Source: Campylobacterota bacterium (GTDB taxonomy: Bacteria; Campylobacterota; Campylobacteria; Campylobacterales; JAADDX01). From it: a DNA stretch of 39,181 nucleotides. The position numbers and the translations under genes were made by a program. Below are positions 2,565 through 33,376 of the stretch, in pieces (the first letter of the stretch is position 1; each line of letters opens with the position of its first letter). Location: assembly GCA_013153685.1 (NCBI GenBank), contig JAADDX010000087.1:1-39181 (forward strand), read 5' to 3'. Below the pieces are notes generated by a model. That model had not been told where the DNA came from and searched no databases. It was given only the letters and a program-made list of their open reading frames with translations.

Positions 2565-3620
2565 ATGATTTTGGTAATGAAGGTTGGTGCAAAAGAGGAA
2601 GATATTAATGCTACGATAAATCAGATTAAAGAATGGGGACATGATGTAAGCTTGGCTCCTGGTGAGAAACAAACCGTAATTGGTATTATAGGTGATAAAT
2701 CGGATTTGACTGGTAGACCATTATCGACTTTACCAGGAGTTTCAAAAGTTTTAGAAGTATCTGCACCGTATAAAAGAGCAAGTAGAGAATTCCATCCAGA
2801 AGATACCGTAATCGATGTAGATGGTGTGAAAATCGGTGGCGGAGAGAGATGTGTTATTGCTGGACCTTGTAGTGTAGATACGCTTGAGAATGTAATTTAT
2901 CTTGCAAAAGTAGCCAAAGAAAACGGTGCGAAAATGTTAAGAGGGGGAGCATACAAACCAAGAACGTCTCCATATACGTTCCAAGGACATGAAGAAGAGG
3001 GTCTTAAAATGATGTTAGAAGCCAAAAAAGAAACAGGCCTTCCTATCGTAACTGAACTTATGAGTATCAAAGATATCGACGTTGTATACAAATATGCGGA
3101 TGTGATTCAAATTGGTGCTAGAAATTCACAAAACTTTCCGCTACTAAAAGAGATCGGAAAGCTTGATAAGCCGGTAATCTTAAAAAACGGAATTGCTGGA
3201 ACAATGAAAGAGCACTTAATGAGTGCGGAATATATCATGAGCGAGGGAAATGATAATGTAATTCTTTGTTTAAGAGGAACTAGAACATTTGAAAGTGCTG
3301 TTAGAAATACTATCGATCTTACACTTGTGCCTATTATGCAGCAACTTACGCATTTACCTATCATTGTAGATCCTTCACATGCTGCTGGAAAGAGGGAATT
3401 TGTAAGTAGCTTGGCTTATGCTGGTATGGCTGTGGGGGCTGATGGGCTTATTATAGAAGTGCACAATTGTCCAAAAGAAGCTCTCTCAGACGGAGATCAA
3501 GCATTGCTCCCAAGGGATTTTGAGTATTTAATGCAAAAATTACAAGCCCTAACACCTTGGAGCCAAAAAGAATGGGTGGAGTTTGATAAACAAAAACAAA
3601 CCGATTGTATCAAACCATAA
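2565..3620 (+). CDS. aroF: DAHP synthase (type I-beta, regulatory FL domain)
   Basis: 3-deoxy-7-phosphoheptulonate synthase condenses phosphoenolpyruvate and erythrose-4-phosphate, the first step of the shikimate/aromatic amino acid pathway. The start is ATG 2565 (MILVMKVG), seven bases after AAAGGAA; an upstream in-frame ATG at 2481 precedes the promoter. The 351-residue product has an N-terminal ferredoxin-like domain (about 1-75), the arrangement seen in Thermotoga-type enzymes where this domain mediates Phe/Tyr feedback. The TIM-barrel catalytic domain shows AGPCS, KPRTSPY, IGARNSQN, LKNG and the metal-site DPSHAAG. The next gene follows after 18 bases. Confidence 0.95.
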   Translation: MILVMKVGAKEEDINATINQIKEWGHDVSLAPGEKQTVIGIIGDKSDLTGRPLSTLPGVSKVLEVSAPYKRASREFHPEDTVIDVDGVKIGGGERCVIAGPCSVDTLENVIYLAKVAKENGAKMLRGGAYKPRTSPYTFQGHEEEGLKMMLEAKKETGLPIVTELMSIKDIDVVYKYADVIQIGARNSQNFPLLKEIGKLDKPVILKNGIAGTMKEHLMSAEYIMSEGNDNVILCLRGTRTFESAVRNTIDLTLVPIMQQLTHLPIIVDPSHAAGKREFVSSLAYAGMAVGADGLIIEVHNCPKEALSDGDQALLPRDFEYLMQKLQALTPWSQKEWVEFDKQKQTDCIKP

Positions 3621-3638
3621 AGGTTTAAGGTGATATAA

Positions 3639-4616
3639 TTGGATTTTTATCGAGTAATTGATGCCGATACTATCGAGTGTTTGTTGTGTCGGCATCATTG
3701 TAAACTACCTCAAGATAGATTCGGTATCTGCAATATCAACAAAAACCAAAATAATTCCCTTCATACGATTGTAACTAATCATCCAAGTGCCATACATATC
3801 GATCCTATAGAAAAAAAGCCGTTGTTTCATTTCCACCCCACAACCCAAACATTATCCATAGGGACTATTGGCTGTAATTTTAGATGCCCATTTTGTCAAA
3901 ATTGGCAACTTTCCTTCGGGTCGGAAATCGGTCAGATGGAAATTACACCGTTTGATATGCTAAATATCGCTTCTAAATATCAAGTCAAAAGCATATCTTA
4001 TACCTATAACGAACCATCTGTATTTTATCCTTATGCCAAGGAAATAGGGGAGTTGGTGTCACTTAAGGGTATCAAAAATATTTTTGTAACAAACGGATAT
4101 GAGAGTATCGAAGAGATAGAGGATATGCAATGGGTTGATGCAGCAAATATTGACCTAAAAAGTTTTGATAGCAAATATTACAAACAAGTACTAAAAGGCA
4201 ATCTAGATTATGTGCTAGATACGATTGAGAGGATGTATAAAAAAGGGATATGGATAGAAATTACTACTTTGGTAATACCTAGTATTGATGAGACTCAAAT
4301 CAGACAGATGGCTCAATTTATCGCATCTTTGAGTAGTGATATTCCATGGCACTTGAGTGCTTTTTATCCAAATTACAAAATGTCTACAGCCTCACCTACT
4401 ACATTAGATACGCTATTTGCGTATCAACAAATTGCCTCTGAGTATTTGAAATATGTGTATTTAGGAAATGTTGCCTTGCCGGCTATTACGTATTGCCCTA
4501 CATGTAATAAAGAGCTTATCATAAGGGAGGGATTTGATGTAGTATCAAATATCTTGGATGTAGATAAATGCCCAAATTGTCACACCACAATCGCTGGAGT
4601 GTTTGGTGATAATTAG
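3639..4616 (+). CDS. AmmeMemoRadiSam-type radical SAM enzyme
   Basis: A 325-residue radical SAM protein. The cluster-binding CxxxCxxC motif is CNFRCPFC (Cys79, 83, 86). The N-terminal Cys-rich segment (CLLCRHHC, then C31) and a C-terminal zinc-ribbon-like pair (CPTC near 287, CPNCH near 313) are typical of the family annotated as the AmmeMemoRadiSam system radical SAM enzyme, related to pyruvate-formate-lyase activases. Its substrate is not established. The start appears to be TTG at 3639, with AAGG about eight bases upstream; the product reads [17 protein letters not shown]. It is likely co-transcribed with aroF. It ends in a 4-base convergent overlap with panC. The usual Memo and AMMECR1 partners are not in the window. 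Confidence 0.85.
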
Positions 4617-30603: not shown

Positions 30604-30637
30604 GGCTTAAACTATTTGCTTATATTCTATTTTTTGT

Positions 30638-30643
30638 TATAAT
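30638..30643 (+). promoter_or_regulatory. ridA leader -10 box
   Basis: TATAAT in TTTTGTTATAATAC after a T-rich tract. The transcript would start near 30650 and carry a leader of about 110 bases before ridA. Confidence 0.55.
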
Positions 30644-30665
30644 ACAGAAAATTTATAAGAAACTT

Positions 30666-30745
30666 GAATTGTTGGTTTGAAATAGCGATGAAGCCCCAAA
30701 AAGGCGAGTGTAAAACGCTTCAATAGGGCTTTTAACTAGCAATTT
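30666..30745 (+). ncRNA. structured leader RNA upstream of ridA
   Basis: A long imperfect hairpin. P1: GAATTGTTGGTT (30666-30677) pairs over all 12 positions with AACTAGCAATTT (30734-30745), three of them G-U. P2: AAGCCC (30691-30696) with GGGCTT (30726-30731). P3: AGGCG (30702-30706) with CGCTT (30716-30720), with an A-rich 9-base loop. Asymmetric internal loops (13 and 2 bases; 5 and 5) separate the stems. It ends about seven bases before the TAAGGAG ribosome site of ridA. It matches no riboswitch class I recognise. A cis-regulatory element or a small RNA are both possible. Confidence 0.5.
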
Positions 30746-30762
30746 AGATATAAGGAGATTTT

Positions 30763-31137
30763 ATGGAAAAAATCAAAATCAACACTGCAAAAGCTCCTCA
30801 AGCAATAGGACCTTATTCGCAAGCGATCAAAGTAGGTAATTTTATCTATACATCAGGGCAGATTGCTTTACTTCCAGATGGTGAATTTTTAAATGAGGAT
30901 ATCAAGCTTCAAACAGAACAAGTGTGTATCAACCTTGAAGCGGTATTAAAAGCAGCTGGAGCAGAGCTAAAAGATGTGGTAAAAACAACTATCTTTTTGG
31001 CTAATATGGATGATTTTTTAGTAGTCAATGAAATATACGGTAAATACTTCACTCACGAACCGGCAAGAAGCACTGTAGCTGTGAAAACCTTACCTAAAAA
31101 TGCATTAATTGAAATTGAGTGTGTAGCAGTGGTGTAA
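30763..31137 (+). CDS. ridA: RidA reactive enamine/imine deaminase
   Basis: Hydrolyses reactive 2-aminoacrylate and related imines formed by PLP enzymes. The 124-residue protein is full length and typical: KAPQAIGPYSQAIKVGNFIY (Tyr18), TSGQIAL, EPARSTVAVKTLPKNALIEI with the carboxylate-binding Arg102, and ECVAV. TAAGGAG lies five bases before the ATG. It follows the structured leader and begins a run of overlapping genes (TAATG with the next). Confidence 0.96.
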   Translation: MEKIKINTAKAPQAIGPYSQAIKVGNFIYTSGQIALLPDGEFLNEDIKLQTEQVCINLEAVLKAAGAELKDVVKTTIFLANMDDFLVVNEIYGKYFTHEPARSTVAVKTLPKNALIEIECVAVV

Positions 31138-31646
31138 TGAATATTCGTTTGATTCCCGCACCTTTATTTATCGAATTTGAGGAATATGATAGTAAGTTTG
31201 ATGAAGAATACGCTAAATTGGGTGCGGAAATAGATGATCCGGTAGGACAGTATTTGAAAATGGCAAAGGCTAAGGGTGAAACCAAAGATAGCGATAAAGT
31301 GGTATTGGAGTTGATAGTCGCTTTGCATAGGAAAGTGGATGAGCTAAAATCTCTTATTATCAACGAACCAAAAGAGCTAATGCCACTTAAATATACAGCT
31401 AAGATTTTGGCGATTGGGTATGAATATTTTAAAATTAAAGAAAAATTATTTATCCCCAATCAAAAATATTACGGTAGAATCGATATCCCGTTCTTTCCGC
31501 AAAGAGAAGTGCCTTTGCAATTTGTAGCAATTGATGAACAGGTAGCGGAAATTATGGTAATGCACGAGCGTGATTTAAAAGATTATAATGCTTTTGTAGC
31601 AGCAAGAGAGAGAGCTATTATTAGACAGAAGAAGGGTATCAAATGA
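31137..31646 (+). CDS. conserved protein, possibly atypical PilZ-like
   Basis: The 169-residue product starts at ATG 31137 in TAATG, overlapping the ridA stop. There is no membrane segment. The N-terminal half is acidic and helical and includes LELIVALHRKVDELKSLII. The second half is beta-rich (LKYTAKILAIGYEYFKIKEK, YYGRIDIPFFPQREVPLQFV). A helical segment of the type 'L..l..Kld.ll.ll' followed by such a barrel recalls the atypical PilZ proteins that act in c-di-GMP or motility control, but the RxxxR / DxSxxG binding residues are not evident. Assignment is uncertain. It overlaps the next gene by four bases. Confidence 0.5.
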   Translation: MNIRLIPAPLFIEFEEYDSKFDEEYAKLGAEIDDPVGQYLKMAKAKGETKDSDKVVLELIVALHRKVDELKSLIINEPKELMPLKYTAKILAIGYEYFKIKEKLFIPNQKYYGRIDIPFFPQREVPLQFVAIDEQVAEIMVMHERDLKDYNAFVAARERAIIRQKKGIK

Positions 31647-32152
31647 GTATGATTTATATGATTTTTGCGGGGATGAGTTTGGCGATTTTGTTTATATTTT
31701 TTTATATGTTCGCAAGAGATAAGGAAATAGATAAGAAGTTTGGATTGATTAGTGCGAGCTTGGAGAATATTAATGAGGAGATATACAAACTCCAAAAACA
31801 GCTCAAACAAGTCCAAGCCCAACCGCAAACTCAGGATCTTGATAAGATGATGCAAGCCACTCTAACCAATCAAATCGATCCTATCGTAGATAATTTGATA
31901 CAAACTATCAAACAAATTGAGCAAAAAAACAACAACGAAATAGCAAAGTTATTTGATAAAATCTCATCAATAGAAGCAAGCGTGAAATCAGTATCCATCC
32001 CAAATCTCGAAACTATGAAAAAAAAGGATGACAAAGAGAGAATTTATGAGCTTTTTGAGATAGGTTATTCGATAGAGGAGATAGCAAAAGAGGTCGGTAT
32101 GAATGCGGGAGAGGTGAAGCTGATACTCAATTTAGGGCATAAAAAAATATAA
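31643..32152 (+). CDS. membrane-anchored coiled-coil HTH protein (DUF6115-like)
   Basis: 169 residues: one N-terminal membrane helix (about 4-24), a long coiled coil (about 30-125, with a Gln-rich stretch KLQKQLKQVQAQPQTQ), and a C-terminal helix-turn-helix (ERIYELFEIGYSIEEIAKEV, then GMNAGEVKLILNL). The order resembles the SwrB/DUF6115 type found near flagellar genes in several phyla. The HTH at the end of a membrane protein suggests a protein contact or a membrane-tethered regulator. The role is unknown. It is coupled to the previous gene by a 4-base ATGA overlap. Confidence 0.6.
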   Translation: MSMIYMIFAGMSLAILFIFFYMFARDKEIDKKFGLISASLENINEEIYKLQKQLKQVQAQPQTQDLDKMMQATLTNQIDPIVDNLIQTIKQIEQKNNNEIAKLFDKISSIEASVKSVSIPNLETMKKKDDKERIYELFEIGYSIEEIAKEVGMNAGEVKLILNLGHKKI

Positions 32153-32179: not shown

Positions 32180-33376
32180 ATGATACAAGAAGCATTAAGA
32201 GAAATAAAAAGAGGATGTAGTGAGCTAATCGATGAAGAGAGAATAGTAGGTTTATTAAAAGATTATTTTGATAATGGACGACACTATTATGTAAAAGCGG
32301 GATTTGATCCGACTGCACCGGATTTGCACTTGGGGCATACAGTGTTACTTCAAAAGCTTAAAATATTCCAAAAATACGGAGCTATTATCCAGTTTTTAAT
32401 AGGTGATTTTACGGCACAAATTGGAGATCCGACAGGAAAGAGTGCTACAAGAAAAGTTCTCACTCCAGAAGAAGTTAAATCAAACGCCCAAACATACAAA
32501 GAACAAGTATTTAAGATATTAGACCCGCAAAAGACAGAGGTGGTGTTTAATTCTAAATGGCTTGATGAGCTTGGGAGTAGGGGACTATTGGCACTTACGA
32601 CTACGTTTAATGTAGCAAGAATGCTTGAGCGTGATGATTTTGAGAAGAGATACAAATCAAATCAACCAATCGCAATTAGTGAGTTTATTTATCCGTTACT
32701 TCAAGGGTATGATAGCGTAGCACTAAAAAGTGATGTAGAAATAGGTGGAACAGATCAGAAGTTTAATCTTTTAATGGGTAGAACACTACAACGAACGTAT
32801 AATATAGGAAAAGAGCAGGCGGTGTTGATGATGCCTTTGCTTGTAGGACTTGATGGTGTTAATAAAATGAGTAAATCATTGGGGAATTATATCGGTATTA
32901 CAGAAGATGCCAATACAATTTTTGCAAAAGTTTTATCAATTTCGGATGAATTGATGTGGAATTGGTATGAATTACTAAGTGATAAGAGTTTGGATGAGAT
33001 TGAAGAGCTTAGAAGGGGTGTGCAAGAGGGTAGACTTCATCCAAAAAAAGTCAAAGAAGATTTGGCGATGGAAATTACCGATAGGTTCCATGGCAAAGGT
33101 GCCGGACTCAAAGCCAAAGAGGAGTTTGATAAAGTTCACAAACAAAACGATATCCCAAGTGATATAGCTGAATTTAGATTTGATGCACCAATAGGGGTGA
33201 TTGATGCATTGTTTGAATGTAAATTGGCAAATACTAAAAGTGAAGCAAGAAGACATATAAAAGGTGGAGCGGTTAGAGTCGATGGAGAGAAGATTGATAC
33301 GTTTGAGATGATGTTGGATAAAGGGGAGTATATTTTGCAAATAGGTAAGAGAAAATTTGCCAAAGTTATTGTATGA
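32180..33376 (+). CDS. tyrS: tyrosyl-tRNA synthetase
   Basis: A class I synthetase charging tRNA-Tyr. The 398-residue protein shows the HIGH motif as HLGH (50-53, in [11 protein letters not shown]), [14 protein letters not shown], the tyrosine pocket [15 protein letters not shown], the KMSKS loop NKMSKSLG (near 232) and a C-terminal S4 RNA-binding domain (about 335-395, [20 protein letters not shown]). It is of the TyrZ-like subgroup. ATG 32180 lies after AAAGGATTAAG. It overlaps the following methyltransferase by four bases. Confidence 0.98.

Follow-up and report, generated by a model that had tools for sequence, protein, structure and literature searches.

A candidate lineage-specific structured 5' leader upstream of ridA in a Campylobacterota draft genome

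In the window, a 39,181-nt contig of a Campylobacterota draft assembly, a 159-nt gap separates uvrD (end 30603) from ridA (start 30763). With a probability of about 0.55, we read this gap as holding a passive, lineage-specific structured 5' untranslated region (UTR) of a rearranged ridA operon. A sigma-70 promoter at 30630-30643 would drive the message of this operon, and the leader would fold into a single long, imperfect hairpin ending shortly before the ribosome site. The hairpin, if it acts at all, would do so passively, as a stable structure at the 5' end by which the start of the mRNA is spaced and protected, with no ligand and no on/off switch in the leader, which would have arisen in this lineage when ridA was placed between uvrD and ORF169. 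Sequence statistics establish the predicted promoter and the length of the leader; the hairpin fold is a prediction with modest support, and we infer that the role is passive and when the leader arose.

Promoter and leader length

The gene ridA is the first of the run ridA-ORF169-DUF6115-tyrS-ubiE. The features discussed below all lie on the plus strand:

30630..30643, + strand: promoter, a T-run plus extended -10 box, TTTTTTGTTATAAT, very likely from genome-wide motif counts
30650..30762, + strand: predicted ridA 5' untranslated leader, ~113 nt, with the longest -10-to-start distance of 60
30664..30747, + strand: predicted long hairpin with helices P1/P2/P3 (14, 7 and 5 pairs), from the minimum free energy (MFE) fold, pair probabilities and shuffles
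30668..30689, + strand: predicted alternative early hairpin, 7 pairs (30668-30674/30683-30689), from prefix folds
30752..30757, + strand: ridA ribosome site AAGGAG, from the sequence
30763..31137, + strand: ridA (RidA / Ribonuc_L-PSP, PF01042; Pfam E 9e-42)

The TATAAT box named in the original prediction is present at 30638-30643, within TTTTTTGTTATAAT, and its motif is supported by genome-wide counts. On both strands of 1.07 Mb (all genome-wide counts cover 1.07 of 1.30 Mb), TTTTG.TATAAT occurs at 77 sites, with 65/77 intergenic and 60 upstream of a gene on the same strand. Motif counts of this kind are far from chance. Because of them, and because the motif matches the -10-type sigma-70 motif known from Epsilonproteobacteria (PMC3847290), TTTTTTGTTATAAT is very likely a sigma-70-type promoter, judged from sequence, and transcription would start near 30650. 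The form with one more T, TTTTTG.TATAAT, marks promoters very cleanly (52 sites in the 1.07 Mb, 45/52 intergenic and 42 upstream of a same-strand gene).

The distance from the -10 box to the ridA start codon, 119 nt, is the maximum among the 60 motif-bearing promoters of the genome, for which it is mostly 15-40 nt. In C. jejuni, 5' UTRs have a mean length of 30.6 nt and a range of 0-158 (PMC3847290). By both comparisons, the ridA leader is unusually long.

The few leaders of at least 70 nt among the 60 motif-bearing promoters include those of tryptophanyl-tRNA synthetase- and tryptophan synthase beta-like genes. On the minus strand in this genome (L231, C40), a 104-nt leader lies upstream of the trpS-like gene; a 70-nt leader, also on the minus strand (L229, C38), precedes the trpB-like gene and contains a long A/T-rich inverted repeat. 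Neither of these two leaders matched an RNA family.

The predicted hairpin

The MFE of 30638-30762 is -25.6 kcal/mol. The three nested stems of 12, 6 and 5 pairs proposed originally are recovered in essence as P1 (30664-30677/30734-30747, 14 pairs, four of them G-U), P2 (30690-30696/30726-30732, 7 pairs) and P3 (30702-30706/30716-30720, 5 pairs). The 12-pair P1 with three G-U pairs corresponds to the inner 12 pairs of the full helix. A highly asymmetric internal loop, with 12 nt on the 5' side and 1 nt on the 3' side, separates P1 from P2, and a 5/5 loop joins P2 to P3. Pair probabilities are ~0.95 for most of P1, 0.9-0.99 for the P2 core and ~0.9 for P3. The stem had rightly been placed just upstream of the ribosome site; the gap between the base of P1 and AAGGAG is 4 nt (6 nt counting 12 pairs) rather than 7.

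Comparison with shuffled controls, which had been put forward as a check, went modestly in favour of the fold. For 30638-30762, z was -2.8 and 2/200 shuffles were equally stable; with 2000 dinucleotide shuffles, p was 0.0195 for 30650-30762 and 0.004 for 30658-30752, so that the value (0.004-0.02) varies with the chosen ends. Among the 167 intergenic regions of at least 80 nt, the leader ranked 24th by z-score and 32nd by energy, and a tRNA region and likely terminators are among those above it. By GC-corrected energy, it was 36th of all 100-nt windows in the 39 kb. The hairpin is a plausible prediction, above chance but modest and not striking, and its rank of 24th suggests that it may lack any role. 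With a promoter upstream and above-chance structure inside the predicted leader, the region has the make-up of a structured 5' UTR. Read as antisense, it gave a weaker fold (z -1.7) with no T-rich -10 box nearby on the minus strand, and this candidate was rejected.

The most stable GC-corrected 100-nt window of the contig lies elsewhere, at 3601-3700 on the plus strand (-35.3 kcal/mol at 36% GC). It straddles two successive ORFs, taking in the end of the first and the start of the second, and contains the inverted repeat GATGCCGATACTATCGAG/...TGTCGGCATC.

Switching, termination and translation of the leader

In folds of successive prefixes, the early hairpin, which shares its 5' strand with P1, is displaced once 30734-30747 has been transcribed. 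With the 3' strand of P1 complete, P1 beats it by ~6.5 kcal/mol, and its occupancy in the full leader is 0; shuffle tests gave p ~0.06 for the prefix fold and p ~0.02 for the early hairpin. In these models, the exchange from early hairpin to P1 is the sole switch-like feature of the leader. AAGGAG is predicted to pair with the beginning of the coding region rather than with the hairpin, and deleting the hairpin in silico hardly alters the accessibility of AAGGAG. In the predicted folds, neither conformer touches the ribosome site or forms a strong terminator. The expression platform of a riboswitch, whether a terminator/antiterminator pair or a ribosome site masked in one of two conformations, was therefore absent from the leader as modeled. 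A thermosensor was rejected on an identical predicted fold from 25 to 70 C.

A terminator scan of the leader found none. P2, the one terminator-like element, is followed by UUUUAAC, a weak arrangement in which the U tract has only 4 residues and is partly paired. A free small RNA of ~85 nt could use these elements, starting near 30650 and ending in the UUUU that follows P2 (~30735), with some transcripts reading through into ridA. It would have its own promoter and, in P2, a terminator-like end, and the early hairpin folds without the 3' strand of P1. We nevertheless regard such an RNA as improbable, given the short, partly paired U tract, the negative scan and the lack of a homologue in the genomes of the order and class that we searched. 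No second promoter motif was seen between P2 and ridA either, so expression of ridA would need the read-through.

The leader also contains a small ORF of 12 codons, MKPQKGECKTLQ (30688-30726), with no ribosome site, no Tyr codon and no run of codons for a single amino acid. It could in principle belong to an attenuator of ridA-tyrS that senses a ligand or acts through a leader peptide, by the early hairpin/P1 exchange or by translation of MKPQKGECKTLQ. This idea draws on the long leader upstream of an operon that encodes RidA and an aminoacyl-tRNA synthetase, on the 12-nt asymmetric internal loop and the alternative hairpin, and on the leader peptides proposed upstream of amino-acid genes in C. 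jejuni (PMC3847290). Like the LeuL/TrpL/MetL attenuators of that species (PMC3847290), the ridA leader is long and has a short ORF whose stop codon adjoins a terminator-like stem; unlike them, its ORF is without ribosome site and regulatory codons, and the U tract is weak. We did not find in the leader a translated ORF that carries regulatory codons, has a ribosome site and lies ahead of a terminator. Since, in addition, neither conformer contacts the ribosome site or gives a strong terminator and the leader has no Rfam match and no conservation, we consider an attenuator highly improbable.

Homologues, gene order and origin

No Rfam family matched the leader at the gathering threshold, and permissive matches were at chance level and of unrelated kinds; a match to a described riboswitch aptamer was thus not among the results. 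As an unassigned structured leader before ridA, with a real promoter motif, the longest of 60 leaders and no Rfam class, the element stands as first described. BLAST found no paralogue in the 1.07 Mb of its own genome, and a DNA search of ~400 genomes of the order gave only short, mostly A/T-rich matches. A covariance model (R1), built from the single ridA leader sequence, was searched with Infernal's stricter filters in 399 genomes of the order and 397 of the class, two draws that overlap. R1 found itself at 120 bits, while all other matches in both draws were weak (<=27 bits) and fewer than their E-values predict. Of the seven weak matches inspected, five were in coding sequence: three shared one position in a single ABC-type ATPase gene, and the others fell in a synthetase-like gene and inside a long ORF. 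Of the remaining two, one was a terminator between convergent genes and one (L144) was placed in neither class. The one other genome of the family in the set gave no match. No similar element was seen in relatives upstream of ridA, downstream of uvrD or around ORF169, and there was no match in phages and plasmids (blastn) or in viral contigs (one exact 20-base pattern). As far as these data go, the leader appears restricted to the lineage of this bacterium. At title and abstract level, we found no relevant literature joining RidA and riboswitches.

Gene order around ridA is different in the relatives, whose gene product names we read from translations and in a few of which (e.g. L033) the ridA start is uncertain. 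In many of them, either ridA abuts or overlaps the preceding gene, or a -10-like box stands 15-40 nt upstream of its start, and where a ridA promoter is visible the leader is mostly short. In the family member, a glutamine-synthetase-like gene lies 48 nt ahead of ridA, and a short phosphatase- or reductase-like gene follows uvrD. A polyprenyltransferase-like gene, not ridA, precedes ORF169-DUF6115 in the relatives examined. Because these contexts differ, a ridA-linked RNA class is, on sequence comparison, not a feature of the phylum, and the leader most likely arrived with a local rearrangement of the operon. The group is known to lose synteny, leaders and ncRNAs rapidly from one species to the next (PMC3847290). 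The uvrD-ridA locus is known from a single draft assembly, with a possible chimeric junction as a caveat.

At 31137-32152 and 32180-33376 of the window, ORF169 and DUF6115, which form a conserved pair in relatives, stand with ridA before and tyrS and ubiE after them. ORF169 has homologues in 32/40 relatives, yet matches no Pfam family.

These comparisons also bear on the suggestion that the leader is a sensor, suited to RidA, of an amino acid or of a PLP-enzyme stress signal. The suggestion finds no support: no homologue, and so no conserved aptamer, was found in the genomes searched, nor was any fold-dependent terminator or ribosome-site pairing, and in relatives ridA mostly has a short leader or none of its own. 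The riboswitches of the Rfam 15 classes resemble the ridA leader in being structured leaders upstream of metabolic genes, whereas the ridA leader differs from them in having no family match, conservation or expression platform. A lineage-restricted class of cis-regulatory RNA, controlling ridA-tyrS by the early hairpin/P1 exchange in response to a metabolite or protein cue, is the least probable proposal we considered, and very unlikely.

The region may instead have no function, as intergenic DNA that the rearrangement left behind (such as an old promoter and a decayed terminator stem, P2) and that folds by chance. The modest edge over shuffles and over other intergenic regions would suit this explanation, as would the lack of conservation and the absence of the gene junction from relatives, and in a relative (L145), a terminator between convergent genes looks similar to P2 (AAGCCC...GGGCTTTT). 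Against it stand the gap itself, 159 nt long where intergenic DNA makes up only 4.7% of the genome (simple ORF caller, 1.07 Mb), and the co-occurrence of a promoter, a long leader and a hairpin that ends just before the ribosome site. We therefore think a chance fold possible, though on balance unlikely.

The passive structured 5' UTR is favored by the motif statistics, the leader length, the p-values of the fold and pair probabilities near 0.95, together with the unchanged accessibility of AAGGAG, the absence of a terminator and, in the order and class draws, of homologues, and a gene order that relatives do not share. It recalls the lineage-specific 5' UTRs and ncRNAs of Epsilonproteobacteria (PMC3847290), which are likewise species-restricted, set in unconserved gene order and preceded by a -10-type sigma-70 promoter; the ridA leader differs from them in being longer than usual and in its predicted long hairpin.

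A fold from a single genome, with neither homologues nor an expression platform, is no evidence for a riboswitch. Sequence statistics alone nonetheless suffice to recognize a promoter and a structured leader of unusual length in a draft Campylobacterota genome and, if congeners appear, the ridA locus would offer a clean test of the way in which operon rearrangement gives rise to leaders.
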